64,000 bases of DNA. It comes from a virus. The stretch's first letter is position 1; the number at the start of each line of letters is the position of its first letter. The DNA is taken from IMG/VR virus record IMGVR_UViG_3300006990_004842, positions 34,635 to 98,634 of that record, one strand, 5' to 3'. A program made the translations under genes and the position numbers. This document shows positions 494 to 57,265 of the stretch, one piece after another. Under the pieces are notes generated by a model, which was given only the letters and a program-made list of their open reading frames with translations, was not told the DNA's origin and made no database searches.

Positions 494-521
494 ATTATAT
501 AACATGCCAAGTAATTGTCAA
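494..521 (-). promoter_or_regulatory. sigma70 promoter for the lipoprotein gene
   Basis: Reading the minus strand, TTGACA (516-521), a 16-nt spacer and TATAAT (494-499) match the bacterial sigma70 consensus exactly. It drives the lipoprotein gene starting at 387 and suggests early expression by the host polymerase. Confidence 0.8.
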
Positions 522-552
522 CCTATATATGCTGTGTAAAGGTATTTATTGT

Positions 553-560
553 AGTAAATA
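553..560 (+). promoter_or_regulatory. late promoter-like AGTAAATA
   Basis: AGTAAATA differs by one base from the NATAAATA late promoter of this genome and ends 5 nt before the ATG at 566. If it is used, the transcript would start at or near the start codon. Confidence 0.45.
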
Positions 561-565
561 ACATT

Positions 566-1711
566 ATGCAAGATAATTTGAACAGAAATATAACTGCTAT
601 GTACGGGTCAGTAATAGACACAGTACACATTAAAAAGCCTGTGCTATATCATTGTTTAATAAGACAAAAGGATTATGATGCACTAGACTTTAATCCACAT
701 GACGGCACAACGTATGTGCCAAAATTTGATTTCAGTGGTATATGGAGTAAGCAGGAAATTAGACAAATAGTGTTTTCTAAGGGTGCTGTAATTGTTGATT
801 TTTCCGGAGAAAATTATCATGATAATCTTGATGTATGTAAAGGTGTCGTTGATGCGTTAGGTGAACTAGGAATACCTGGTAATCAAGTAATATATCTCAG
901 TGGTAAACACAATGAAGCATCTATAAGAAAAACATCTGCGTATGTTTTACACTTGCCTGTGTTTGATTATTACATGAGAAAAAGATACAACGACAGTGTA
1001 GATCGGGTAAAATTTTTGCAGGATAATACACAAGAAAAATTATTTGTATGCCCGATGCGTAGACTGCACAGTCTTAAAACATTTCGCACTAGAATGTTAC
1101 TTGATATGTATGATGCTGATTGTATACAACATGGCATGATATCACATATGAGTATGCCTGAAAATTACAGACGTTTTTTTACAGATGAAGAATGTAAAAA
1201 ACTAGACAGTATTCTACCTTTGTGGATCGATTATAATATGGATGACACACACGGAAGTGAAATATCACACGATCCTTATAAGGGTAAAGGTTACTTATCA
1301 CCATATTCAGACATGATGGTAAACACATATTTTCATGCTACTGTTGAAACCTGGATAGATCAATTCTTCATAACAGAAAAAACATTTAGGCCAATGTATC
1401 ACAAGATGCCTGTGCTTATATTAGGTGGCGTAGGATCAAACACAAAAATACAAGAGTATGGATATAAGACATACGAAGACTGGTTTGATTTGAGTTGGGA
1501 CAACGAGCCTGATGATAACAAAAGAATTAAATGCTATGTTAAAGAAATACAACGTGTATGCAACTTGCTAAAAAATATGTCTGTGCAAGAACGCATAGAT
1601 TGGAGTACAAAAAATTTAGAAGTGTTAGAACACAATTACAATAACATGAAACAATCTAATTTTTTAGAGAACCAATTTGCCAAATTAGCAGACTATGTGA
1701 ACCAACTATGA
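566..1711 (+). CDS. GT10-like glycosyltransferase (first of a tandem pair)
   Basis: The protein has 381 residues. Its C-terminal half holds ITEKTFRPMYHKMPVLILGG, which resembles the donor-binding motif of GT10 (fucosyltransferase-like) enzymes. The end (YKTYEDWFDLSWD) is nearly the same as in the next gene, so the pair arose by duplication; a third relative lies at 44395-45468. A role in putting sugars on host or phage surface structures is inferred. I chose the ATG at 566 because the longer frame would need a TTG at 515, and a late promoter-like box sits just before 566. No ribosome site is visible. The stop overlaps the next start (ATGA). Confidence 0.6.
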   Translation: MQDNLNRNITAMYGSVIDTVHIKKPVLYHCLIRQKDYDALDFNPHDGTTYVPKFDFSGIWSKQEIRQIVFSKGAVIVDFSGENYHDNLDVCKGVVDALGELGIPGNQVIYLSGKHNEASIRKTSAYVLHLPVFDYYMRKRYNDSVDRVKFLQDNTQEKLFVCPMRRLHSLKTFRTRMLLDMYDADCIQHGMISHMSMPENYRRFFTDEECKKLDSILPLWIDYNMDDTHGSEISHDPYKGKGYLSPYSDMMVNTYFHATVETWIDQFFITEKTFRPMYHKMPVLILGGVGSNTKIQEYGYKTYEDWFDLSWDNEPDDNKRIKCYVKEIQRVCNLLKNMSVQERIDWSTKNLEVLEHNYNNMKQSNFLENQFAKLADYVNQL

Positions 1712-3671: not shown

Positions 3672-3700
3672 ATTATACTATGTTATGAGAGAATTGTCAA
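3672..3700 (-). promoter_or_regulatory. consensus sigma70 promoter for the exonuclease gene
   Basis: On the minus strand TTGACA (3695-3700), 17 nt and TATAAT (3672-3677): a perfect consensus. Its -35 box lies in the last codons of the upstream SGNH gene, an economical overlap. Confidence 0.88.
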
Positions 3701-4390
3701 GAATTGTGCCGCAAAATATTTATGGCCTTTTGCAGATATATGTCCATCATGTGTTTCTCCAAACCGCATTGCCGCACCTGTCATTGTAAAAGGCATAGAT
3801 ATATTATTCCAATGTGGGTTGCTTATGTGTGTGTAATTCCAAATTTGGTTAGAAAATTTTACTTCTGACAACATTTCATATTCTGGTACCAATGGTACCG
3901 CTGTGTGGATAATTTTATTTACACCTATATTTTTCAAGTATGTATCCACATGATTCATATACAAAAGTGTGTTTATAAAACCATCAGTAGAATTATGAAG
4001 ATTACTGTAATAACTAATTACTGGTTCTTCCTCCAGCCATGGGCCAATGGTATAGATATCACTTTGGTATATGTCAACAGAAGAATCATCTGATGTTCTT
4101 GTTTCAGGATAACGATCAGGTGTATATGCATCAGTGAGTATGCTTACTCTATCTGGGAACGACCAACAAAGTATTACTGTGTCATCTTTTTTGTGCTCTG
4201 AGTTTAAGACAACATGCCAAATATGTTTGTTACCAATTCCACAACATGCTCTGTTAGAGCAATCAAAATTTAATGACTTTGCTAATATATACGGCCACGA
4301 ATTTTTGTCTGGTATTTCTGGACTTAGGTCATCTAGATCTAGACCTTGTCCTACAGTAAAACTATCGCCGTAAGCAACAATCCTAGACAT
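3683..4390 (-). CDS. SGNH/GDSL-family hydrolase
   Basis: The 235-residue protein starts MSRIVAYGDSFTVGQG. The GDSF block supplies the nucleophile Ser10, and the C-terminal DGHISAKGHKYFA fits the Asp-x-x-His block V. SGNH enzymes are esterases or deacetylases, often acting on acyl groups of polysaccharides. Here it sits next to glycosyltransferases, which suggests surface sugar modification (inference). It starts directly after the stop of the gene at 4392. Related proteins lie at 20290, 21110 and 42590. No signal peptide is visible. Confidence 0.7.
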   Translation of the reverse strand: MSRIVAYGDSFTVGQGLDLDDLSPEIPDKNSWPYILAKSLNFDCSNRACCGIGNKHIWHVVLNSEHKKDDTVILCWSFPDRVSILTDAYTPDRYPETRTSDDSSVDIYQSDIYTIGPWLEEEPVISYYSNLHNSTDGFINTLLYMNHVDTYLKNIGVNKIIHTAVPLVPEYEMLSEVKFSNQIWNYTHISNPHWNNISMPFTMTGAAMRFGETHDGHISAKGHKYFAAQFLTILS

Positions 4391-19627: not shown

Positions 19628-20300
19628 ACTTTTGTTCATAATAATCCAGCAGACGTTTGCCCCACTTCTCACAATACTCGTCAAACTCGTCACCTTCAAT
19701 TACAAAATCTTTATATTGTCCTTCTCTGTCTACCATTAAGATAGCAACTTGTTTGATGTTTGTACCAAACATTTCATTGTGTGCTAGTGCATATGCACAA
19801 CCTTGCATAAAGTAATCTTCAATCCATTCTCTTTTCTTGATCTTTTTAGCAGTCTTAAAGTCAATAATTGCAGGTTTGCCGTTCCACATGCCTATTGCAT
19901 CACTGGTACCTGCATAAAGTCCTTCGCTGATCAATGCTACTTCAACACCCCACAATTCATCAATTTGGCTCATGCCATCTCTGACCATTTTGTCTACCAT
20001 TTGTTTAGCCATAATACTGATTAAATTGTTTCCAGTAATTTCCCATGTTTCGCCTAATACATATTTTTCTAATGCATTATGCACTTTAGTTCCTAGGCCT
20101 GCGGCTTCTCTGCTCACACGGTTTGCTTCTTCCTCACCAACACGTTTACGCCATGCTATGAGAGCAGTTTTATCTCCTGTATCAGAAAGTATTGTTGTTA
20201 CACTAGGCACCGGTTTATTGTCTTCGCCTGTGTATTGACGTTGTCCTGATTTTGCTGTTACCCTTTTTAATGTAGGGTATTCATATTTTTCAACTAGCAT
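19626..20300 (-). CDS. PD-(D/E)XK nuclease, Cas4/RecB-like
   Basis: The 224-residue protein has YAGTSDAIGMWNGKPAIIDF followed by KTAKK: the Asp and the DFK give the PD-(D/E)XK active site, and an early helix (AAGLGTKVHNALEKYVLG) supplies the His motif of RecB-type nucleases. It likely trims or resects DNA in recombination, repair or host DNA breakdown. No Fe-S cysteine cluster of the Cas4 type is seen. Its start overlaps the SGNH gene by 11 bases, and its stop is part of a late promoter. Confidence 0.75.
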   Translation of the reverse strand: MLVEKYEYPTLKRVTAKSGQRQYTGEDNKPVPSVTTILSDTGDKTALIAWRKRVGEEEANRVSREAAGLGTKVHNALEKYVLGETWEITGNNLISIMAKQMVDKMVRDGMSQIDELWGVEVALISEGLYAGTSDAIGMWNGKPAIIDFKTAKKIKKREWIEDYFMQGCAYALAHNEMFGTNIKQVAILMVDREGQYKDFVIEGDEFDEYCEKWGKRLLDYYEQK

Positions 20301-21120
20301 CTAGTATCTCCAGTAATTTATTAGCCATTTGATCATGGCAATGTAGGTTAGGGTGAAATTGGCAAGGGTGTATATATTCTTTATGAATTGGATGGGATTT
20401 ATTAACTCTGAATTCAACTGCTTGATATTCATTTTCGGTTGTGCCTTTTGTTATCGGCATTCCCAATATATCAACATAATTTGTTCCGGTTGTCAAACCA
20501 AAAAGTGTATCTGTTTTTTTGATAAGCCAGCATTCATCGGGTACTAAATTTATTTCTTCAGATATGTGTATTGGTCCCCACACGTTAAAAATATAGAACT
20601 TTATATTATGTGCTTTACATACGGAATACATTTCATTTATTGTTTTAGTTGATTCATACTCACTAAAAGGAATAAGAGGTCTGAGCTTGTCTTTGAAAAA
20701 CACTTTGTGGCGTTCTGCATGTCGTTGAATGTTTTGATGATAGTGACAAAGGTCTTCTTCAGTTCTAGCAAAATCTCTGCTTTGTGCAGTAGTACTTAAA
20801 AAAACTATATTATTATGCTCTAACTCTTTTGGATACTTTTTAATCCACTCATACAGATTATACAAAGCAAACGATATACTGCCGCCACTAAATCCAAAAT
20901 TCCAATGTTTTGCACCAATTGTATCACTTACTTTTCTTCCAAAAACAAAATTAGGCATGTTATAACCAAATGTAGCATTAGGAACATATTTTGGAGAAAC
21001 ATAGGCATTTGCAAAACCGCCTGTCTCTGGATCTCCACTACCATTCCTGAACCTAGGCTCTTTGTAAAGTTCGGAACCAATAACCCAACTATCACCAAAC
21101 CATAAATGATTAGTTTTCAC
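20290..21120 (-). CDS. SGNH-like hydrolase (tandem copy 1)
   Basis: The 276-residue protein starts (GTG at 21120, after GGAGG) with MKTNHLWFGDSWVIGSELY; GDSW is block I with the nucleophile Ser. NFGFSGGS fits block II. The C-terminal HPCQFHPNLHCHDQM holds candidate catalytic His. It shares its opening with the next gene (FGDSWVIG), so the two are a tandem duplicate. An esterase or deacetylase acting on surface sugars is likely, but no substrate can be named. Confidence 0.6.
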   Translation of the reverse strand: MKTNHLWFGDSWVIGSELYKEPRFRNGSGDPETGGFANAYVSPKYVPNATFGYNMPNFVFGRKVSDTIGAKHWNFGFSGGSISFALYNLYEWIKKYPKELEHNNIVFLSTTAQSRDFARTEEDLCHYHQNIQRHAERHKVFFKDKLRPLIPFSEYESTKTINEMYSVCKAHNIKFYIFNVWGPIHISEEINLVPDECWLIKKTDTLFGLTTGTNYVDILGMPITKGTTENEYQAVEFRVNKSHPIHKEYIHPCQFHPNLHCHDQMANKLLEILDAS

Positions 21121-21868
21121 TGAGGGCCTCCATTAACTTAATATGCATCTGTTTGTGCCCTGATATATTGAGGTGGTAATCATTTATATAATTTGCATTG
21201 ATATCATTGTTTTCATCGTTCCAAACATCATATATTTCAGCACCAAATGTTTCATTAAATAAGGTACCTGGGAGCAAGTAGTGTGTTGATAAATTAAAAA
21301 CATCAATATGTTTTAATGTTGTTATTTGCTCCCAGGTAGATAGTAAATGTAGTTTTACATTGTAATTTTTACAGAGTGCAACTACTTGATTTAGAATTCT
21401 AGTGTTGTTGTATTCAAAAAATACAGGTACTTCCCATTTATCTGTTAAAAAATTATGTTCGCTTTCTTTACTTAATTGTCCTTTAGGGTGTACATGGTAT
21501 TCTTTATGCTCTATATCATCAATAAAAAATGCTCGTGTGTTTCCACTAACACAAAAAAAGATTGTGTAATTAATGTTAGGTTGATAAATGTTCTTGAAAA
21601 ATTTTGTCAATTGGACTAATTGAAACTCTATTGAACTACCAGGGAAAGCAAAATTAATGTATTCAACATCTCTTTCTTTACTGGTCAAACTTGCAAAAGA
21701 ATACTCAGGGTGCGACCAATCTCTCGTTAAATTTGGAAAACGCCCTGTGTGTTTTAATTCTTGATGATGTAATTCTGGTGTTTTAGATTTATCTTGTTGG
21801 TATATTTCGTCATACAAACCTGTACCAATGACCCAACTATCACCAAACCATACGTCTGTTTTATTCAT
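21110..21868 (-). CDS. SGNH-like hydrolase (tandem copy 2)
   Basis: The 252-residue paralogue of the previous gene begins MNKTDVWFGDSWVIGTGLYD. It has NFAFPGSSIE (block II), FCVSGNTRAFF (block III Asn) and DYHLNISGHKQMHI (block V Asp and His), so its catalytic set looks more complete than that of copy 1. A GATAAATT late-like sequence lies just before the ATG (21872-21879). The two overlap by 11 bases and are coupled. No signal peptide is seen. Confidence 0.62.
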   Translation of the reverse strand: MNKTDVWFGDSWVIGTGLYDEIYQQDKSKTPELHHQELKHTGRFPNLTRDWSHPEYSFASLTSKERDVEYINFAFPGSSIEFQLVQLTKFFKNIYQPNINYTIFFCVSGNTRAFFIDDIEHKEYHVHPKGQLSKESEHNFLTDKWEVPVFFEYNNTRILNQVVALCKNYNVKLHLLSTWEQITTLKHIDVFNLSTHYLLPGTLFNETFGAEIYDVWNDENNDINANYINDYHLNISGHKQMHIKLMEALSEN

Positions 21869-48873: not shown

Positions 48874-49300
48874 GTGCTTCTGCTAATTGTTTTAATTCAT
48901 CTTTAGTGTTTATATCTAATATCATTTCCAACTCATCTGATTTGAGTGTGGGAAACAAGTCTGATAAAAACTCTGTAACCTTGTTCTTTTTCTTTCTGCT
49001 GTTTGGTGGCTTGATGTAAGGATGAAATTCTATCTTACCTGTGCCACACATACTCATCAACATCCATTGCAATTCTGGGTGCTTGTAAATCTCTTCAAAA
49101 TTTTTGTTTACAAGTTCATTAACCATAAAAATAAAATGTGCGGCATTCTTGCCTTGCACACTACTTGCATATCTCATCATCATCCATGTGCTAAATGCTT
49201 TTGTCTGTTCAGCATTTAGTCTATTATACCAACCTTTGTCTCTTTTGTCAATGGCGGCCATAACAGTTTTCAATGGCAATGCTGGTTGCTTCTTAGGCAT
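48830..49300 (-). CDS. 62: gp62-like clamp-loader small subunit
   Basis: The 156-residue protein starts at ATG 49300 (MPKKQPALPLKTVMAAIDKR) and has a helical pattern with VNELVNKNFEEIYKHPELQW and HPYIKP, resembling the clamp loader small subunit of T4-like cyanophages. It would join a gp44 ATPase (not in this window) to load the sliding clamp. Similarity to T4 gp62 itself is weak. The start overlaps the nucleosidase gene end by 8 bases. Confidence 0.55.
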   Translation of the reverse strand: MPKKQPALPLKTVMAAIDKRDKGWYNRLNAEQTKAFSTWMMMRYASSVQGKNAAHFIFMVNELVNKNFEEIYKHPELQWMLMSMCGTGKIEFHPYIKPPNSRKKKNKVTEFLSDLFPTLKSDELEMILDINTKDELKQLAEAHGYDDKAIKDIFGK

Positions 49301-49820
49301 GATAGTCCTTGTAGATTGTAATAAAGTGTTCTTCGCCCTTTGCAACATTGTCTAGCCAACTTGTATCTGCACTGTCGTCTGCATTGTCGCTTACATACTT
49401 GTAACATTTGAAATCAATGCCTCTTTGCTGACAGGCTTTTGCAATAGCAAATGCCTCCATATCAACAACGTGAGCTGGTATTTCTAAATCTGGATCTGTA
49501 ACAAAGTTATCTCCTGTGCTACATGTATACCCAATACCATTTGAAATAGTAATTGGATCTTTTGGTAACATCATTTCTATTGCCTCAGGACACTTGCCTT
49601 TATCTCGTTCAACAAAGTTAACCATTTCATGGCATCCTTCTTTTAACACAATACCACCTGCTGTTCCAAAATTCCAAACTCTAATTGGCTTGAACTTCTG
49701 TATTAACCTAGCGGCTGTTAGTGCGGCATTGATTTTACCTACACCAGTAAAAAATACATTATCCCATTTGGCCATGTTAGGTGCCTCATGTTCTAATGCT
49801 ATTAAAATTAAGTCTTTCAT
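49293..49820 (-). CDS. MTA/SAH nucleosidase-like enzyme
   Basis: The 175-residue protein begins MKDLILIALEHEAPNMAKWD and has FFTGVGKINAALTA, FGTAGG, VDMEAFAIA and KYVSDNADD, the usual sites of the PNP/UDP phosphorylase family and closest to MTA/SAH nucleosidases (MTAN/Pfs). It likely cleaves S-adenosylhomocysteine or methylthioadenosine to adenine. It is short for the family (about 230), mostly in the centre. Coupled to apt by ATGA, and metK is two genes above, so the three fit one cycle. Confidence 0.75.
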   Translation of the reverse strand: MKDLILIALEHEAPNMAKWDNVFFTGVGKINAALTAARLIQKFKPIRVWNFGTAGGIVLKEGCHEMVNFVERDKGKCPEAIEMMLPKDPITISNGIGYTCSTGDNFVTDPDLEIPAHVVDMEAFAIAKACQQRGIDFKCYKYVSDNADDSADTSWLDNVAKGEEHFITIYKDYHA

Positions 49821-50347
49821 TCGTTTATATCCATGACGCTGAATGTTTCCACTCCGCAATAGTCCTTTAGTTTAGCAGTTCCTTCTAAGAAAGTCAAGTC
49901 TATTATGCAGGCATAATTTATATCATATCCTCCTGCTTGTTTAATTAATTCTACCATAGCATTAGCAGTACCACCTGTAGCACTTACATCATCTACAATG
50001 CATATTCTATCAGTGTATGCAAACTGAACACTGTCTAGCATTTCTAAAGTTTCTTCACCGTACTCTAATGTGTATGAATATGACTTTACTTTGCCCGGCA
50101 ATTTACCAGGCTTACGAACAATGTGTAAAGGGATGCCTAATGCTAGTGCAACAGGAGCACCCCATATAAAGCCACGAGCATCGGGTGCAACAATCTGTGT
50201 TGCTTTGATACTTCTGCAATATGCAACGACCTTATCTACAGTGTACTTAAATGCTTTTGGGTCTTCGAGTATGCTTGATATATCTTTGAACATGACTCCC
50301 TCTATTGGGAAGTCAGGTACAGTACGGAGTATTTTATTGAGATCCAT
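49817..50347 (-). CDS. apt: adenine phosphoribosyltransferase
   Basis: The 176-residue protein starts MDLNKILRTVPDFPIEGVMF, the usual Apt opening, and has VVAPDARGFIWGAPVA and the PRPP-binding loop ICIVDDVSATGGTA. It makes AMP from adenine and PRPP. Beside a nucleosidase that frees adenine, it completes recycling of the base. I start at ATG 50347 which overlaps the lipoprotein stop (TAATG); a longer frame to 50374 would extend into it. Confidence 0.9.
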   Translation of the reverse strand: MDLNKILRTVPDFPIEGVMFKDISSILEDPKAFKYTVDKVVAYCRSIKATQIVAPDARGFIWGAPVALALGIPLHIVRKPGKLPGKVKSYSYTLEYGEETLEMLDSVQFAYTDRICIVDDVSATGGTANAMVELIKQAGGYDINYACIIDLTFLEGTAKLKDYCGVETFSVMDINE

Positions 50348-50832
50348 TACTGAGGGAACACCCTTAGAGGACAATTTTGAGAATACCTTCTCTTTTGAAT
50401 ATGTCCACTTAAAATAACTTTGTCTCCTGTGGTAAATGTGTAATCACCTGCTTCTTGTGATACACTGATTCCTGACCCACCATTGTGTATATCTACAAAC
50501 AACATCACACCTGGTCTCGACATACCTTGTCCAACTCTATTACCAATTGCATTTCCTATTGCGACACCTGCTCCTGTTGCAAGTACTTTTGCTAATTCGC
50601 TTTCGTCCTTTGCAACACGATTACCAACGTAACCACCAGTAATAGCACCTGCGGCTTGTGCTGTTTCAACATCGCCTTCTATGATAATATCCTTAACAGA
50701 TATAACTGTACCGGTTACAAACGGACATGGCTCTCTGGCCTCATCACGTTTAGTTACTTCAGGTTTAAGACTGCCACCAACCGCACAACCTGTGAGTGCT
50801 AAAATTAACAACGTACTTAATAATACTCTCAT
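50347..50832 (-). CDS. outer-membrane lipoprotein, SlyB/glycine-zipper type
   Basis: The 161-residue protein has a signal peptide ending in lipobox LTGC (Cys16) and two Gly-zipper segments (GAITGGYVGNRVAK and ATGAGVAIGNAIGNRVGQ), as in the 17-kDa antigen/SlyB family of outer membrane proteins. The rest is beta-like, with GDKVILSGHIQKRRY. Phages rarely carry such a host-type envelope protein; it may stabilise the envelope or block other phages. AGGAGA ribosome site. It lies between metK and apt in the operon. Confidence 0.8.
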   Translation of the reverse strand: MRVLLSTLLILALTGCAVGGSLKPEVTKRDEAREPCPFVTGTVISVKDIIIEGDVETAQAAGAITGGYVGNRVAKDESELAKVLATGAGVAIGNAIGNRVGQGMSRPGVMLFVDIHNGGSGISVSQEAGDYTFTTGDKVILSGHIQKRRYSQNCPLRVFPQ

Positions 50833-50840
50833 AATATCTC

Positions 50841-51941
50841 CTAGAACAAATTAACTTGTTCCCAAGGTAAATCTGCTTTACCAAAATGACCATAATTAGT
50901 TGTGGTCGTTAAATCTAGACCAAACAAGTCAAACCTATCAATGATACCTTTGGGTGTTAAGTCTACTAATTGTTGAATTTCGTGTGCTAAGTCAGTTCTA
51001 ACTTTGCCATCTGCATACACATAAACACTAGTTGGTTCTTTGATACCAATAGCATAACTTAATTGTACTGTGGCATTCTGTGCTTTACCACTTGCTACAA
51101 TGTTCTTAGCCAAGTAACGTGCCATGTAAGCCGCACTTCTGTCTACCTTGGTACAGTCTTTGCCACTGAATGCTCCGCCACCGTGCGGTGCGTAACCGCC
51201 GTAAGTATCAACAATAATCTTTCTACCAGTTAATCCTGTGTCACCATCTGGACCACCAACAACAAACTTGCCAGTTGGATTGATCAAGTATTCAGTATTC
51301 TCATCAATTGGTGCATTACATTCTTGTAATGCTTTTACTACTAATTGTCTAATAGCATCACGAGTGTGTTCAAGTGGATAGTCTTCTGTGTGCTGACTGC
51401 TACAAACAACTTTGCTAATTCTTAGAGGTGTATTAATGTCTGCATATTCCATAGTGACTTGACTTTTGCTGTCTGGTCCTAACCATGTACTTGCTTTATT
51501 TCTTTCTTGCTCTAAAAATTTTAGAATCTTGTGACTGTAATAAATTGCACTAGGCATGTAATCTTCTGTTTCATTACATGCATATCCAAACATCAGTCCT
51601 TGGTCACCAGCACCAAACGTGTCTGTGCCTAATGCAATATCAGGTGATTGTCCGTGTAGTTCATTGTAAACTGTTAGTGTAGCCCAATGGAAGCCATCTT
51701 GCTCGTAACCAATTTCTTTTACTACGTCTCTGACAATTTTTTCAATTGCCATTTTGTTAAATTTATCACTCTTGTACTCACCTGCCAATGTAACCATGTT
51801 GGTAGTAACCAGTGTTTCTACAGCCGCTCTGTGGCTTAGTTTTCCATCAATTAAAAATGTTGCTACAGCATCTGAAATATGATCTGCAACTTTATCCGGG
51901 TGTCCAATACTTACACTTTCGCTAGTAAATTGGTAACTCAT
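50841..51941 (-). CDS. metK: S-adenosylmethionine synthetase
   Basis: The 366-residue protein has GHPDKVADHISDAV, GAGDQGLMFGYACNET, the loop GGPDGDTGLTGRKIIVDTY and GGGAFSGKDCTKVDRS: the full MetK signature set, length near the normal 384. It makes SAM from methionine and ATP. In a phage this would support DNA or protein methylation, or refill SAM used up by host or phage. It overlaps the upstream gene by ATGA, with AGGAGA before the ATG. Confidence 0.95.
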   Translation of the reverse strand: MSYQFTSESVSIGHPDKVADHISDAVATFLIDGKLSHRAAVETLVTTNMVTLAGEYKSDKFNKMAIEKIVRDVVKEIGYEQDGFHWATLTVYNELHGQSPDIALGTDTFGAGDQGLMFGYACNETEDYMPSAIYYSHKILKFLEQERNKASTWLGPDSKSQVTMEYADINTPLRISKVVCSSQHTEDYPLEHTRDAIRQLVVKALQECNAPIDENTEYLINPTGKFVVGGPDGDTGLTGRKIIVDTYGGYAPHGGGAFSGKDCTKVDRSAAYMARYLAKNIVASGKAQNATVQLSYAIGIKEPTSVYVYADGKVRTDLAHEIQQLVDLTPKGIIDRFDLFGLDLTTTTNYGHFGKADLPWEQVNLF

Positions 51942-52435
51942 ACTAAATCTCCTATGTCTAAATCTGATACCTTGTTAAACTCCTTGACAAAAAATGCACA
52001 TCTGGGTTTCGGCTTATCCTCTAATGGTATTGCTAGTAAATGACCATTTTTTAGTTTAGGAAAGTACCATTTTACATCTTGGTAAATGTTCGTTATACTT
52101 ATTTCAAAACTGTCTGGTATCTTGTTACTTAATGGATTCATTGCTAATGCTCTAAACCCTCTATTGTTGAGACTTGTCAACGGCAAACATTCAACGCCGC
52201 CATAGTCCTCGTCACATAAAAGTATACTCCAATCCATTGGCATCTGTACATTATAATCACCAATCTGTAAACAAATTGCTGGGGCATAAAAACTTTCTAA
52301 AAAGATCAATGGTAAAAAATAAAAATCAACATCATCTGAATCACTGGCATCTAATGCACAGTATCGTAAATCATCAATTTCTTCTGGCACCGTATCTAAA
52401 TCATACGGCAGATTTTCAATAGTTAATATCTTCAT
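51938..52435 (-). CDS. conserved phage protein, unknown function
   Basis: The 165-residue protein begins MKILTIENLPYDLDTVPEEI, contains CALDASDSDDVDFYFLPLIF and ends KEFNKVSDLDIGDLV. It is acidic and strand-rich. I recognise no motif, but a protein of this type next to uvsW is a known pattern in T4-like marine phages. It overlaps uvsW and metK by ATGA on both sides. Confidence 0.58.
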   Translation of the reverse strand: MKILTIENLPYDLDTVPEEIDDLRYCALDASDSDDVDFYFLPLIFLESFYAPAICLQIGDYNVQMPMDWSILLCDEDYGGVECLPLTSLNNRGFRALAMNPLSNKIPDSFEISITNIYQDVKWYFPKLKNGHLLAIPLEDKPKPRCAFFVKEFNKVSDLDIGDLV

Positions 52436-53889
52436 TTATACTCCACTTTGGTTACAGTGTGACGAAAGTTCTGCTCCTTGTAATATGTCTTTCTTTTAGT
52501 TAGGTGTCGTCTACTGTATTTTAAGTTACTTGTTATGTCAATTATGTTAACATAATCTTTATCTTCTGCTTTTCGAATACCCCTTCCGATACTCTGTATG
52601 ACTCTTACAAAACTTTTACCTGGCTCTAATAGAACCAAATTAAATATCCTTGGTATATTAATACCAACTGCCGCAACGCCATATGTTGCAACAATAACCT
52701 TATTGTTCATCTCAGATATTTCATCATACTCAGATTGTCTATCCTTGACTTTCATACCACCACTAACAAATGCCCAATCAGGATTCATCTCAGAAAATAT
52801 TTCTCCAGTTTTAATTCTATCAATTAATACTAGTGTGTTTCCATGAGTAGACAACTCTTTAATCACAGTTGAGAGATGTGTGAGTCTATCAATGTCAGTT
52901 GTGAGCCACTTTAATTCTTGTGCATAACTGTTGAATCCTAGAGGACCATCTTGCATTTGTAATATACTAATGTCGAGGTCTGCTAGTACGCCCATATCTT
53001 GTAACTCTTTACTACTGAGCTCTCCTATAACTGGACCTAATGCACATACACAACCAACTGCTTCATGTTCATCCTTTGGTATTGTTCCAGTAAGTCCCCA
53101 ACGAATAGGAACGTTCTTAAACATACCACTCAACTGATCTCTGAGTACATCTGCTTTGGCTTTGTGTACTTCGTCTACCATAATGCAAACTACGTCCTCT
53201 AAGAATACATCTAGGTCAACTTCGGCTTCACCAGCCTTTGTTTTCTTTTCTAATACTGCAAGACTTTGCCATGTACAAATTGTATGTGTCTTGTCATATT
53301 CTTTTCTGTCACCAAACAGTACACCAACATCCATACCTAAATTCTTATAATCTTTTTCTGTTTGTACAACCAAGTCTTTGTTAGGTACAATAACAATAGT
53401 CCTGCCATAGTCTTGACACTTGTGACTAAGTACAGCAGTGATTAAAGTTTTACCTGCACCAGTTGCAATTTGTTGCAAACATTGAGGATTAGAAAGGAAT
53501 CTATTAATTGCTTCTACTTGATAGTCTCTTAATATAATAGGCAAGCCTTCTGCTGGATGATTCTTTGGCCACGCAATGTGATCAAAACTACTTGCTTCAA
53601 CAGGTTCAAAGTTGAAATCCCAACTCTGTCTATTATCAACTACCTCAACATTGTAACCTTCTTTGGTTACTATTGGTAGCAGTTGATCAAGTAGGTTGAG
53701 ATATGTTCTACCGCCTATATCGCAAAATCGAACACAACCATCCCATCTACCTAATTTGTATGCTGGCATATGATAAGCATACGGCAAAAAGTATTTCACT
53801 GCATCTGAAATCTTGCGTCTTGTTTTAACATCAAGTCCAACAAATTTAACGTTGACTTCGTCTCTAATTTCTAAAGTTACTTTTGCCAT
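52432..53889 (-). CDS. uvsW: UvsW-like DNA/RNA helicase
   Basis: The 485-residue superfamily 2 helicase has Walker A IATGAGKTLITAVL, the DEVH box MVDEVHKAKAD, motif III WGLTGTIPKDE and late motifs VIQSIGRGIRKAEDKDY. T4 UvsW (503 residues) remodels R-loops and forks and turns off early origins. The promoter TTGACT-N17-TAAAAT starts RNA one base before the ATG, so there is almost no leader. It heads a nine-gene operon down to about 46.7 kb. Confidence 0.9.
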   Translation of the reverse strand: MAKVTLEIRDEVNVKFVGLDVKTRRKISDAVKYFLPYAYHMPAYKLGRWDGCVRFCDIGGRTYLNLLDQLLPIVTKEGYNVEVVDNRQSWDFNFEPVEASSFDHIAWPKNHPAEGLPIILRDYQVEAINRFLSNPQCLQQIATGAGKTLITAVLSHKCQDYGRTIVIVPNKDLVVQTEKDYKNLGMDVGVLFGDRKEYDKTHTICTWQSLAVLEKKTKAGEAEVDLDVFLEDVVCIMVDEVHKAKADVLRDQLSGMFKNVPIRWGLTGTIPKDEHEAVGCVCALGPVIGELSSKELQDMGVLADLDISILQMQDGPLGFNSYAQELKWLTTDIDRLTHLSTVIKELSTHGNTLVLIDRIKTGEIFSEMNPDWAFVSGGMKVKDRQSEYDEISEMNNKVIVATYGVAAVGINIPRIFNLVLLEPGKSFVRVIQSIGRGIRKAEDKDYVNIIDITSNLKYSRRHLTKRKTYYKEQNFRHTVTKVEYK

Positions 53890-53896
53890 ATACTAT

Positions 53897-53925
53897 ATTT
53901 TATCTTATCTCAATGAAAAAGTCAA
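53897..53925 (-). promoter_or_regulatory. sigma70 promoter for uvsW; predicts a leaderless mRNA
   Basis: TTGACT (53920-53925), 17 nt, TAAAAT (53897-53902). The predicted RNA start is at 53890, next to the ATG at 53889. The -35 lies in the last codons of the receptor gene. Confidence 0.75.
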
Positions 53926-55521
53926 GAAGATTTTTTGTCCACCGACATTATATCCTGGAAGTATTTCAGTTACATCATCAAGTAAGTCTTGTACTGTTAA
54001 AGAAACTTCAAACTTGTCTGAAACTTTTCTTGTTAGCACAAAGTCTATTGAGGATATATCTTCTAATACTGCACCATCATATGGCCCAGGTTCTCTTTCA
54101 AACTGCCCACGGTATCTAAGTTCAGCAGTTGAATTTCCAAAACTTGCAAAATATGACACACTGCCTTTGTACTCAGGTACTCTAGGTTGATCTGTATCTG
54201 TGTATGCTAAGAATACATTTAGACTTCCATATGGTACTGGATACGTATCTTGGAACCTAATACCTTTTGTGTCGTACTTTCCTGTGTTTACATACTGGCT
54301 AATAGTTCCGTCATAGTCAATGTTTTCTTCAAACTTGTAACTGAACAATGAGAAACCTATGTAACCAAGTTCAATACCCATACCTTCTTCTGGTTGTAGA
54401 TTTGGATTTGGTTGTACCCATGAATCTCCATACTGCTGATACAATGTTGGATTTCTATAACTAGTACTGAAGTTACCATAAAGCCCTTCTAACTCATACC
54501 CAACACGATAAACTGTTGCATCTTCACTAATACGAGCACCAACTTGAAAAGTATCTCTAAAGTTAATAGTTGCATAACCACTAACATTATCTTGGTTTTC
54601 ACCAGCGTATTCTTCTTTGTCGTAAGTAATACCTGCAATAAGTTTTGCTGGTGGATAACCTAGTTCAAAAGATTCTCTGGCATCAAAGTAATAACGTTTT
54701 GCATCACTTTGCCAAGTGCTAACACCTTCAGTGAAGTATTCGCTATCTGTGTTACTGTAACCAAGAGTTAGATTGTTATTTCTAATACTGATATCAGTTT
54801 TCTCGCCGGACTGTAAACAATCATTTGACTGTGAAAACGATGCAGTATAGCAGTTGTCATAGTCATAATCATAATCAACATGTGACATTGCCACTGTGAA
54901 TCCTAGCACATCTTTAACTGACTTAATGGTTGTGTTTTTGTAATCATCTTGTTCAGTGTTATCATTACGCACACTGTCATTGACTACATCAAACGATGTA
55001 ATACTAATTGCATCAAACAGTGCTACATTTAGCAATCGGTGATCTTCACCAATTCTTACAACACCTTGATTTGATATCTCATCATTAATAAACACAGTAC
55101 CACCAAGACTACCAGAGCCATAAAGAACACCGTTTGGTCCACTAACAACTTTTACTGATTCCAACCCACTAACAATATCATGTGCAAAGTCATACCAACC
55201 TGCACCTGCATCATTAACCGGGACACCATTTCTGTAAACAGTTGTGTGTACTGTTTGAGCACCACGCTCATTGAATAATGCCGCACCGCCATAACCACCT
55301 GCAACAAATGATGTTGCTGGCATTAATGTTTCAATCAAAGAAAGATCCTGGGATACATCAGTTGCGTCTAGTATTTCTAAACTACCGACAACCACAATTT
55401 CTTCTATGTAGTCATTATTATTTTCTTCTGCCTTTAGATCAAATGCAATCATCATCACTAACATAATAAATGCCGTTATATATAATGGCATAAAGTTTTT
55501 ATCAAAATTTCCTAGTTTCAT
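53905..55521 (-). CDS. TonB-dependent outer-membrane receptor homologue (BtuB-like)
   Basis: The 538-residue protein has a signal peptide (1-31), a TonB box EEIVVVG at 40-46, a plug domain (50-150, with VKVVSGPNGVLYGSGSLGG), then a 22-strand-type barrel. SYRNPTLYQQYG and NPNLQPEEG match the receptor family signature near the BtuB group; the end is IFLTFSLR. The Cys pair in DNCYTASF and NDCLQSG may close a loop. It would sit in the outer membrane and take up a TonB substrate, bind another phage, or mask a receptor. AGAGGTAAA ribosome site. Very unusual in a phage. Confidence 0.88.
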   Translation of the reverse strand: MKLGNFDKNFMPLYITAFIMLVMMIAFDLKAEENNNDYIEEIVVVGSLEILDATDVSQDLSLIETLMPATSFVAGGYGGAALFNERGAQTVHTTVYRNGVPVNDAGAGWYDFAHDIVSGLESVKVVSGPNGVLYGSGSLGGTVFINDEISNQGVVRIGEDHRLLNVALFDAISITSFDVVNDSVRNDNTEQDDYKNTTIKSVKDVLGFTVAMSHVDYDYDYDNCYTASFSQSNDCLQSGEKTDISIRNNNLTLGYSNTDSEYFTEGVSTWQSDAKRYYFDARESFELGYPPAKLIAGITYDKEEYAGENQDNVSGYATINFRDTFQVGARISEDATVYRVGYELEGLYGNFSTSYRNPTLYQQYGDSWVQPNPNLQPEEGMGIELGYIGFSLFSYKFEENIDYDGTISQYVNTGKYDTKGIRFQDTYPVPYGSLNVFLAYTDTDQPRVPEYKGSVSYFASFGNSTAELRYRGQFEREPGPYDGAVLEDISSIDFVLTRKVSDKFEVSLTVQDLLDDVTEILPGYNVGGQKIFLTFSLR

Positions 55522-55547: not shown

Positions 55548-55573
55548 ACCCCCCGAAGTTATCTCCGGGGGGT
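55548..55573 (-). terminator. strong GC hairpin, likely terminator
   Basis: Stem ACCCCCCG/CGGGGGGT (55548-55555 with 55566-55573) after the AAA+ ATPase gene and before the receptor gene. The T run after it is weak, so some read-through into the receptor gene is likely. Confidence 0.65.
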
Positions 55574-55602: not shown

Positions 55603-56625
55603 TTATGCAACACGTTTCATACAGGTTGATTCTGCAAGTTCTTTCCAAGTGTCTGGACTCATTTGTCGTAAGTCAGCAATCTTGAGAACCATCCTGAGTG
55701 AAATTTCACGTAATCTTGCACTCTTCAATAACATGAAGTCTACAATTTCAGTATTCTCATCTGGTGTCCAACCATATTCATCGAGCATACCATCACGTAC
55801 AATTTGATTGATTCTTATGAAACGATCTTCCACACTATCCATTTCCAAATCAATGTAGTGACAACGTGACATCAAAGCCGCTAAGTGATCTTGAATCTTC
55901 TTAGAACGAACATTCTCAAAGTTCACGTTAGTGATAAAGATCACGCCACCTTTGAAGTCAAACCTATCAGGTATACCTTCCCTACGCAAAGCCACTGATT
56001 CTGATTTCCAAGAAATAGTTCTCTTCTTACCGGAGTCAAGTACTGCCTTCAACATGTTCAAGCAAACCTCGTCAAACAAGATGCTGTCACAGTCGTCAAA
56101 CACAAGGATGTCACCTTTTGCTGAATTGTTGTAAAGAGTTTGAAACAAACCAATTGGTGTCATTGAGCCTTTGACAACTTCAGTTCTAGGCGGCTTGTTA
56201 GACAATTTTTGCATCATGTCATATTCGTCTAGAATCTTTTCAACACCAAAGGACTTACCAACTCCAGGAGGGCCACTTACAATAAGACCTCTAACAACAC
56301 CGTTTGCCACAGCATCAGTCATCTCATCGAGGATATTGAATCTACGTTTGATTCTATCCATAGCCTCTTCTACAGTTTCTTTTTTCTCAGCCTTTACAGG
56401 AGTTTCCTCAGCAACCTCACCAACATACTCAACATGTTTTGGATCTTCGAGTAAAACTCTAATAGCAGTTTTGTCTGGACCTAATACCTTGCTGGCATCT
56501 ACAGTTACAAACAAACCTTTCTTACCGAATGTACTAGGCTTGACCAACGGAAACACAGTATCAGTGATAGGTGCATTTCTGTAAGTGCCTTGGATAATTC
56601 GAACTTGCTTTTGCGTATTTTTCAT
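55603..56625 (-). CDS. AAA+ ATPase of T4-like marine phages
   Basis: The 340-residue protein has Walker A GPPGVGKS, Walker B ILVFDDCDS, a sensor-1 stretch GVIFITNVNFENV and a C-terminal arginine finger region. It is a MoxR/clamp-type AAA+ protein but lacks the marks of gp44. It might remodel a replication or assembly complex. I start at ATG 56625, with GGGAGG before it; 56640 lacks this. A sigma70 promoter lies at 56663-56690, so expression is early. Confidence 0.75.
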   Translation of the reverse strand: MKNTQKQVRIIQGTYRNAPITDTVFPLVKPSTFGKKGLFVTVDASKVLGPDKTAIRVLLEDPKHVEYVGEVAEETPVKAEKKETVEEAMDRIKRRFNILDEMTDAVANGVVRGLIVSGPPGVGKSFGVEKILDEYDMMQKLSNKPPRTEVVKGSMTPIGLFQTLYNNSAKGDILVFDDCDSILFDEVCLNMLKAVLDSGKKRTISWKSESVALRREGIPDRFDFKGGVIFITNVNFENVRSKKIQDHLAALMSRCHYIDLEMDSVEDRFIRINQIVRDGMLDEYGWTPDENTEIVDFMLLKSARLREISLRMVLKIADLRQMSPDTWKELAESTCMKRVA

Positions 56626-56662
56626 AATTTTGCCTCCCACAGCAATTAATTAATATACATAT

Positions 56663-56690
56663 AGTATAACATCTTTTAGGATGTTGTCAA
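56663..56690 (-). promoter_or_regulatory. sigma70 promoter for the AAA+ gene
   Basis: TTGACA (56685-56690), 16 nt, TATACT (56663-56668) on the minus strand. Confidence 0.75.
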
Positions 56691-57237: not shown

Positions 57238-57265
57238 ATTATAGCAAATTTACAGGTTTTGTCAA
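57238..57265 (-). promoter_or_regulatory. sigma70 promoter for the 168-residue gene
   Basis: TTGACA (57260-57265), 16 nt, TATAAT (57238-57243) on the minus strand: perfect hexamers. Confidence 0.8.

Follow-up and report, generated by a model that had tools for sequence, protein, structure and literature searches.

A BtuB-like TonB-dependent receptor encoded by a T4-like phage lineage, a candidate importer of nutrients early in infection

The window analysed here is a stretch of 64,000 nucleotides, covering 34635-98634 in a virus record of 98,634 bp. Its minus strand carries an open reading frame for a TonB-dependent receptor (TBDR) at 53905..55521 (-), which encodes 538 amino acids from an ATG start preceded by AAGAGGT and has no internal stops. 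The gene sits among phage genes, as the original prediction had said. On its left flank, upstream, lies the gene of a T4-type AAA+ ATPase (AAA; 55603..56640 (-); phrog_1250, 285 bits), and on its right flank, directly downstream and 15 bp beyond the TBDR stop, that of a UvsW-type helicase (52432..53889 (-); phrog_16, 234 bits). The run continues with a phrog_11279 protein (51938..52435 (-)) that overlaps the end of uvsW, an S-adenosylmethionine synthetase (MetK; 50841..51941 (-)), a 161-aa putative lipoprotein with an ILALTGC lipobox and no family match (50347..50832 (-)), an adenine phosphoribosyltransferase (APRT; 49817..50374 (-); NCBIfam PRK02304.1-5, 184 bits against a cut-off of 125), and an MTA/SAH-nucleosidase-like protein (MTAN; 49293..49859 (-); Pfam PNP_UDP_1). 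The nearest solved proteins to this last product are MTA/SAH nucleosidases, and its score falls below the NCBIfam cut-offs. All of these genes, from TBDR to MTAN, are tightly packed. The putative lipoprotein, which has a glycine-rich zipper-like stretch, would be a second envelope protein within the TBDR gene run.

Judged by its domains and predicted fold, the product is a complete TBDR, and the original claim of a full-length receptor is borne out. The putative signal peptide (residues ~1-31, 55429..55521 (-)) has a basic n-region and a hydrophobic core and ends in DLKA before EE. The leader reads MKLGNFDKNFMPLYITAFIMLVMMIAFDLKA and the TonB box comes after it; comparable leaders are seen in all full-length relatives. 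The TonB box IEEIVVVG (residues 39-46, 55384..55407 (-)) occupies columns that are conserved in an alignment of 37 phage relatives, with E41 invariant. The plug domain (residues 49-146, 55084..55377 (-)) matches Pfam Plug (PF07715) over residues 61-142 at 45.6 bits against a cut-off of 23.9, and is the most conserved domain of the protein, with low divergence. The remainder, residues 147-538 (53908..55083 (-)), matches TonB_dep_Rec_b-barrel (PF00593) at 50.3 bits against a cut-off of 27 and ends in GGQKIFLTFSLR. An AlphaFold2 model built on the alignment of the 37 relatives (pLDDT 86.7, pTM 0.84) contains a plug, and its DSSP assignment gives a count of 22 strands in the barrel. Two extracellular loops carry invariant residues: loop 2, DSVRNDNTEQ (54949..54978 (-)), with D187, N188 and E190, and loop 3, YDYDNCYTASFSQSNDCL (54814..54867 (-)), with Y219, D220, D222, C224 and C235. 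The cysteine pair C224/C235 of loop 3 is a probable disulphide. From sequence and model, the product is almost certainly a functional phage-encoded TonB-dependent transporter.

The gene appears well equipped for transcription by sigma-70 RNA polymerase. A sigma-70-type promoter, TTGACA-16-TATACT with TG before the -10, is predicted at 56663..56690 (-), upstream of AAA and TBDR, and a site of this type precedes AAA in 73 of 78 related loci, compared with 9.8% of random 400-base stretches. A terminator-like hairpin with an 11-bp stem (55548..55573 (-), z = -3.7) separates AAA from TBDR. Relatives have analogous hairpins between these two genes, with stems that differ in sequence. Where the AAA-TBDR spacer is longer than 105 bp, every locus (39/39) has, after the hairpin, a near-perfect sigma-70 promoter of the form TTGAC[AT]-N-TATAAT that would serve the TBDR alone. 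Elsewhere in the window, 57238-57265 (-) and 49223-49251 (-) are perfect 12/12 matches to the sigma-70 promoter, and in both TG precedes the -10; the early promoters of this phage seem to keep to a strict consensus. No cobalamin riboswitch, an element that often precedes btuB in bacteria, was found upstream of the TBDR, and an Rfam scan of window positions 44-64 kb returned one tRNA only.

Among receptors of solved structure, BtuB is the closest. A profile of 37 phage members finds BtuB in the PDB with E = 1e-21, the match spanning residues 40-528, and the 13 best Foldseek matches in the PDB are all BtuB (E. coli, Bacteroides BtuB3), with a best TM-score of 0.77. The NCBIfam model TonB-B12 (TIGR01779) matches 36 of the 37 members, more than any other model does. 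The window protein scores 55.3 bits against it, far below the equivalog cut-off of 599.7 bits, so homology to BtuB is no basis for assigning the ligand. Like BtuB of E. coli and BtuB1/BtuB3 of Bacteroides, the phage protein has a TonB box, a plug and a 22-strand barrel and aligns from end to end; loops 2 and 3 are acidic in both, and the C-terminal signature is similar, that of BtuB being ETVYGYQTAGREYTL. The two differ in length (614 amino acids in BtuB, 538 here) and share ~20-25% identity, and the phage family has a loop 3 cysteine pair, WYDFAHDI and YDYDNC signature motifs, no riboswitch and a distribution confined to phages. We therefore regard these receptors, on their sequences, as a phage-only sister family that is BtuB-like and not BtuB. 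In BtuB, loops 2 and 3 hold a calcium cage of five aspartates, by which the affinity for cobalamin is tuned (PMC7360065). Invariant acidic residues of the phage family lie in loop 2 and at its edge (D187, E190, D192) and in loop 3 (D220, D222), their residue-level alignment to BtuB being unsure.

That the protein imports a nutrient is probable from its sequence and model. The original prediction had named iron and cobalamin as examples of a possible cargo; the import-type receptor stands, with cobalamin the best supported of the ligands named and iron the weaker one by both sequence and fold. A corrinoid (vitamin B12 or a relative) is the likeliest ligand, a proposal that we hold to be roughly evenly balanced. 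The same machine, resembling BtuB in general fold only, could also carry something else, such as an iron siderophore, haem, another metal chelate or an organic nutrient. This is a lesser possibility, to which the low identity to BtuB, a score far under the equivalog cut-off and a conserved loop 3 cysteine pair with no counterpart in BtuB all lend weight, and haem and hemoglobin families also score weakly against the phage family in NCBIfam. Set against it, the siderophore and haem receptors in the PDB, which are the next matches of the profile, come near the threshold (PhuR at 0.003, Cir at 0.004), whereas BtuB is matched over its full length at the E value given above and is ranked first by Foldseek.

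The gene shows signs of both constraint and exchange. In pairs with measurable divergence, dN/dS of the TBDR is 0.08-0.25, as expected of a gene under purifying selection. Synonymous divergence is at odds with that of the neighbours in several pairs of contigs: the TBDR dS is 0.72 compared with 0.09 in both flanks (L009/L010), 1.12 compared with 0.03 in AAA (L084/L036), and 0.50 compared with 0.98-1.45 in the neighbouring genes (L018/L019). TBDR alleles thus appear to be swapped between phages independently of their flanks. Over 28 genomes, mean identity is 46% for the TBDR, 80% for UvsW and 73% for AAA. The best-conserved barrel segments are the loops L2, L3 and L9 (mean identity 0.72, 0.76 and 0.81), compared with 0.38-0.69 for the strands. 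In allele pairs the loops differ by 0.20 and the strands by 0.25, so a test for the hypervariable loops of a decoy receptor was negative, the loops of these pairs diverging no faster than the strands. Conserved loops that diverge little are to be expected if the ligand is shared, and speak against an antigenic decoy.

These data also bear on superinfection control or remodelling of the cell surface, in which the TBDR would compete for TonB or alter the outer membrane and so bar TonB- or BtuB-dependent phages and colicins. TBDRs, BtuB included, are common phage receptors (PMC8624392, PMC10504331), which speaks for such a role, and alleles swapped by recombination are what balancing or diversifying selection on a surface gene would produce. 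We nevertheless consider it quite unlikely. The loops are not hypervariable, L2 and L3 are among the best-conserved parts of the surface, dN/dS does not exceed 0.25, and a decoy receptor for the phage's own virions would harm the phage. Superinfection control or receptor replacement, put forward in the original prediction, fits poorly with extracellular ligand loops that are conserved and not variable, and because a blocking receptor needs no full transporter with an intact TonB box.

Relatives of the TBDR are widespread in uncultured viruses. A first IMG/VR scan gave 41 and a profile-based scan at least 291 contigs. Two contigs with other metagenome sample ids (L002 and L003) have the gene order of the window and proteins that are 100% identical. 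Among the 80 best uvsW relatives, two could not be judged; the TBDR lies directly upstream of uvsW in 62 of the 78 informative ones, and AAA is directly followed by uvsW in the other 16. Homologues thus do occur at the same locus in other viral genomes, and the outcome is the opposite of a gene never found beside phage genes in relatives: the order AAA-TBDR-uvsW is found again in dozens of contigs, with UvsW identities of 55-91%. Another set of 77 loci gave 72 in which the TBDR was scored at the uvsW site. In four of the five exceptions uvsW is in place, and the TBDR call was probably lost through overlap by a long uvsW ORF. The set includes a second phage subfamily, with UvsW ~55% identical and an extra, conserved gene of 350-380 amino acids between AAA and TBDR (e.g., L146:2931-4046 and L186:4925-5977), whose stop overlaps the TBDR start in several contigs and which matches no PHROG family. 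Contigs are shared between these scans, so the locus counts are not independent.

The family was not found in the isolated phages and cellular genomes that were scanned. A tblastn search of 50,697 GenBank phage records gave no credible TBDR relatives; two Salmonella records among the matches (AFYI01000005 and AGRM01000004) carry btuB and 16S rRNA, look like bacterial contigs and were set aside, and Acinetobacter 'phage MD-2021a' records (btuB_1) match the TBDR at 23% over 77%. The original description of the gene as very unusual therefore holds for isolated phages and fails for uncultured ones. None of 84,980 bacterial and archaeal genomes (GTDB) has a relative with the phage signature motifs. 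A second GTDB scan, by plug motifs, recovered three generic TBDRs, one of these genomes matching the profile weakly and in part, at 25 bits, and neither scan revealed a bacterial parent of the gene. By its distribution among the genomes scanned, the family appears to be phage-only. An auxiliary metabolic gene is of host type and is carried and retained by a lytic phage; the TBDR is retained by phages under purifying selection, and the GTDB scans revealed no bacterial source for it. Although TBDRs are normally bacterial, the chance that a bacterial gene was joined to phage contigs by mis-assembly or chance transfer is negligible, since the same junctions recur in many independent contigs, both close and widely diverged, the gene is under purifying selection and no cellular genome scanned has a relative with the phage motifs; a join artefact is ruled out by the same gene order in independent contigs, and a chimeric contig was rejected on this synteny, which includes the two contigs with identical proteins.

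The isolates nearest in terminase (58.6%) and UvsW (55.7%) are the Pseudomonas jumbo phages PA5oct and Paride and their kin (Arenbergviridae), followed by Atu_ph07 and Phosso. By these proteins, the TBDR carriers form a T4-like lineage related to Arenbergviridae. Paride shares the order TerL-structural-SSB-UvsX-...-UvsW-...-primase-DnaB with the window phage; unlike it, Paride lacks AAA-TBDR before uvsW and has a 154-aa hypothetical gene there instead. A 250-kb IMG/VR relative (G004) contains exactly one plug domain, at the uvsW site. The nature of the related records and the literature suggest that the carriers are probably marine. The relatives in which AAA is directly followed by uvsW (L059, L060, L065-L069, L071, L072, L074, L091-L094, L097 and L099) may represent an ecological group, freshwater as against marine.

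TBDR alleles occupy two or more genomic positions. In ~10 contigs the gene lies directly behind an MTA/SAH-nucleosidase-like gene, with a gap of 1-2 bp, between baseplate genes. In G004 the homologous baseplate genes keep the same order and lack the nucleosidase-TBDR pair, the TBDR of this phage being the one at uvsW. A maximum-likelihood tree places the nucleosidase-site copies within those of the uvsW site and shows two or more changes of position. Three further groups of contigs have more distant copies elsewhere, one of them beside gp46/gp47-like genes (names given from reading the sequences). The sigma-70 site found at the uvsW locus is absent from the nucleosidase-TBDR pair. In L206-L234 there are TAAATA-type motifs in both directions upstream of the nucleosidase gene; if these are T4-like late promoters, this copy of the TBDR may be expressed late instead of early.

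There is a straightforward way in which such a gene could work. Host sigma-70 RNA polymerase would transcribe the TBDR early in infection, Sec would export the protein, and BAM would fold it into the outer membrane. Energised by host TonB-ExbBD, the receptor would then draw a ligand in short supply across the outer membrane of the infected cell, and once in the periplasm it would be taken up by the host's own inner-membrane transporters. Taken as a whole, the proposal that a T4-like phage lineage encodes its own BtuB-like TonB-dependent transporter for nutrient import early in infection, likely of a corrinoid, seems to us about as apt to hold as to fail.

A use for the corrinoid can be suggested. 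B12-dependent methionine synthesis feeding the SAM pool is plausible because the phage also encodes MetK, an MTAN-like protein and APRT downstream of the TBDR. This link to the SAM cycle, which draws on the neighbours in the window and on the nucleosidase-TBDR pair, is tentative. Co-occurrence of MetK, APRT and MTAN with the TBDR was considered as a link and found not to be specific: all three are missing from 12 TBDR loci in the second subfamily and from 9 in the first, and four of six TBDR-less loci keep MetK and APRT. G004 has the TBDR without MTAN. A search of the virus record for CobS returned none at E 0.001, and a need for B12 by a class II ribonucleotide reductase was rejected, the phage genes being class I (NrdA and NrdB), so an obvious B12-dependent phage enzyme is absent. 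A full module for corrinoid piracy, in which a B12 importer confined to phages has an early promoter to itself and is linked to SAM recycling, so that infection of B12-limited marine bacteria would raise the methionine and SAM supply for the virus, is doubtful.

Phages with TBDR genes were known before. A SusC-type TBDR, proposed as an auxiliary metabolic gene, has been described in the marine megaphage Mar_Mega_1 and its relative LR745206 (PMC9723777). SusC-type glycan transporters are large, with an extra N-terminal domain and a SusD partner, whereas the window protein is 538 amino acids of Plug and barrel domains only and has no SusD-like neighbour. The Mar_Mega_1 gene is of this large type and lies at another locus, and the passage that describes it gives neither a conservation study nor dedicated promoters (PMC9723777). 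In BFVD our protein has a single good match, the SusC encoded by an uncultured marine phage (E 6e-11, 805 aa, 11% identity). Pelagiphage Skadi-1, with a podovirus-type genome, has a 'TonB-dependent receptor protein' between tail-tube and capsid genes, which its authors read as a hint to the adsorption receptor (PMC10504331). It too is named as a TBDR, here in a marine phage genome; it differs in that location, and the isolates contain no credible tblastn match to the window protein. Searches of the open-licence literature found nothing on this BtuB-like family. What is new is a phage-only BtuB-like family with dedicated promoters at one locus of much of a lineage.

So far TBDRs have been the doors that phages use. 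Here a large lineage of uncultured phages keeps such a gene conserved, under selection and equipped with promoters, which makes nutrient uptake across the outer membrane a viral function and suggests that cells infected by these viruses gain an importer of nutrients on their surface. Should the ligand be a corrinoid, the phages would be direct competitors for B12, a vitamin that is limiting in the sea. The family offers a clear target: one protein, with one predicted class of ligand.

Two other groups of genes in the window caught our attention. Proteins encoded at 3683-4390, 20290-21120 and 21110-21868 (-) start with a GDS motif (xxGDSxxxG) and look like proteins of SGNH/GDSL hydrolase type; similar GDS-motif proteins occur near the TBDR in L028 and L031. 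Immediately upstream of AAA/TBDR, many related contigs encode distant homologues (20-30% identity) of the protein encoded at 515-1711 (+), which may therefore come from a family of phage genes that are mobile or present in several copies.
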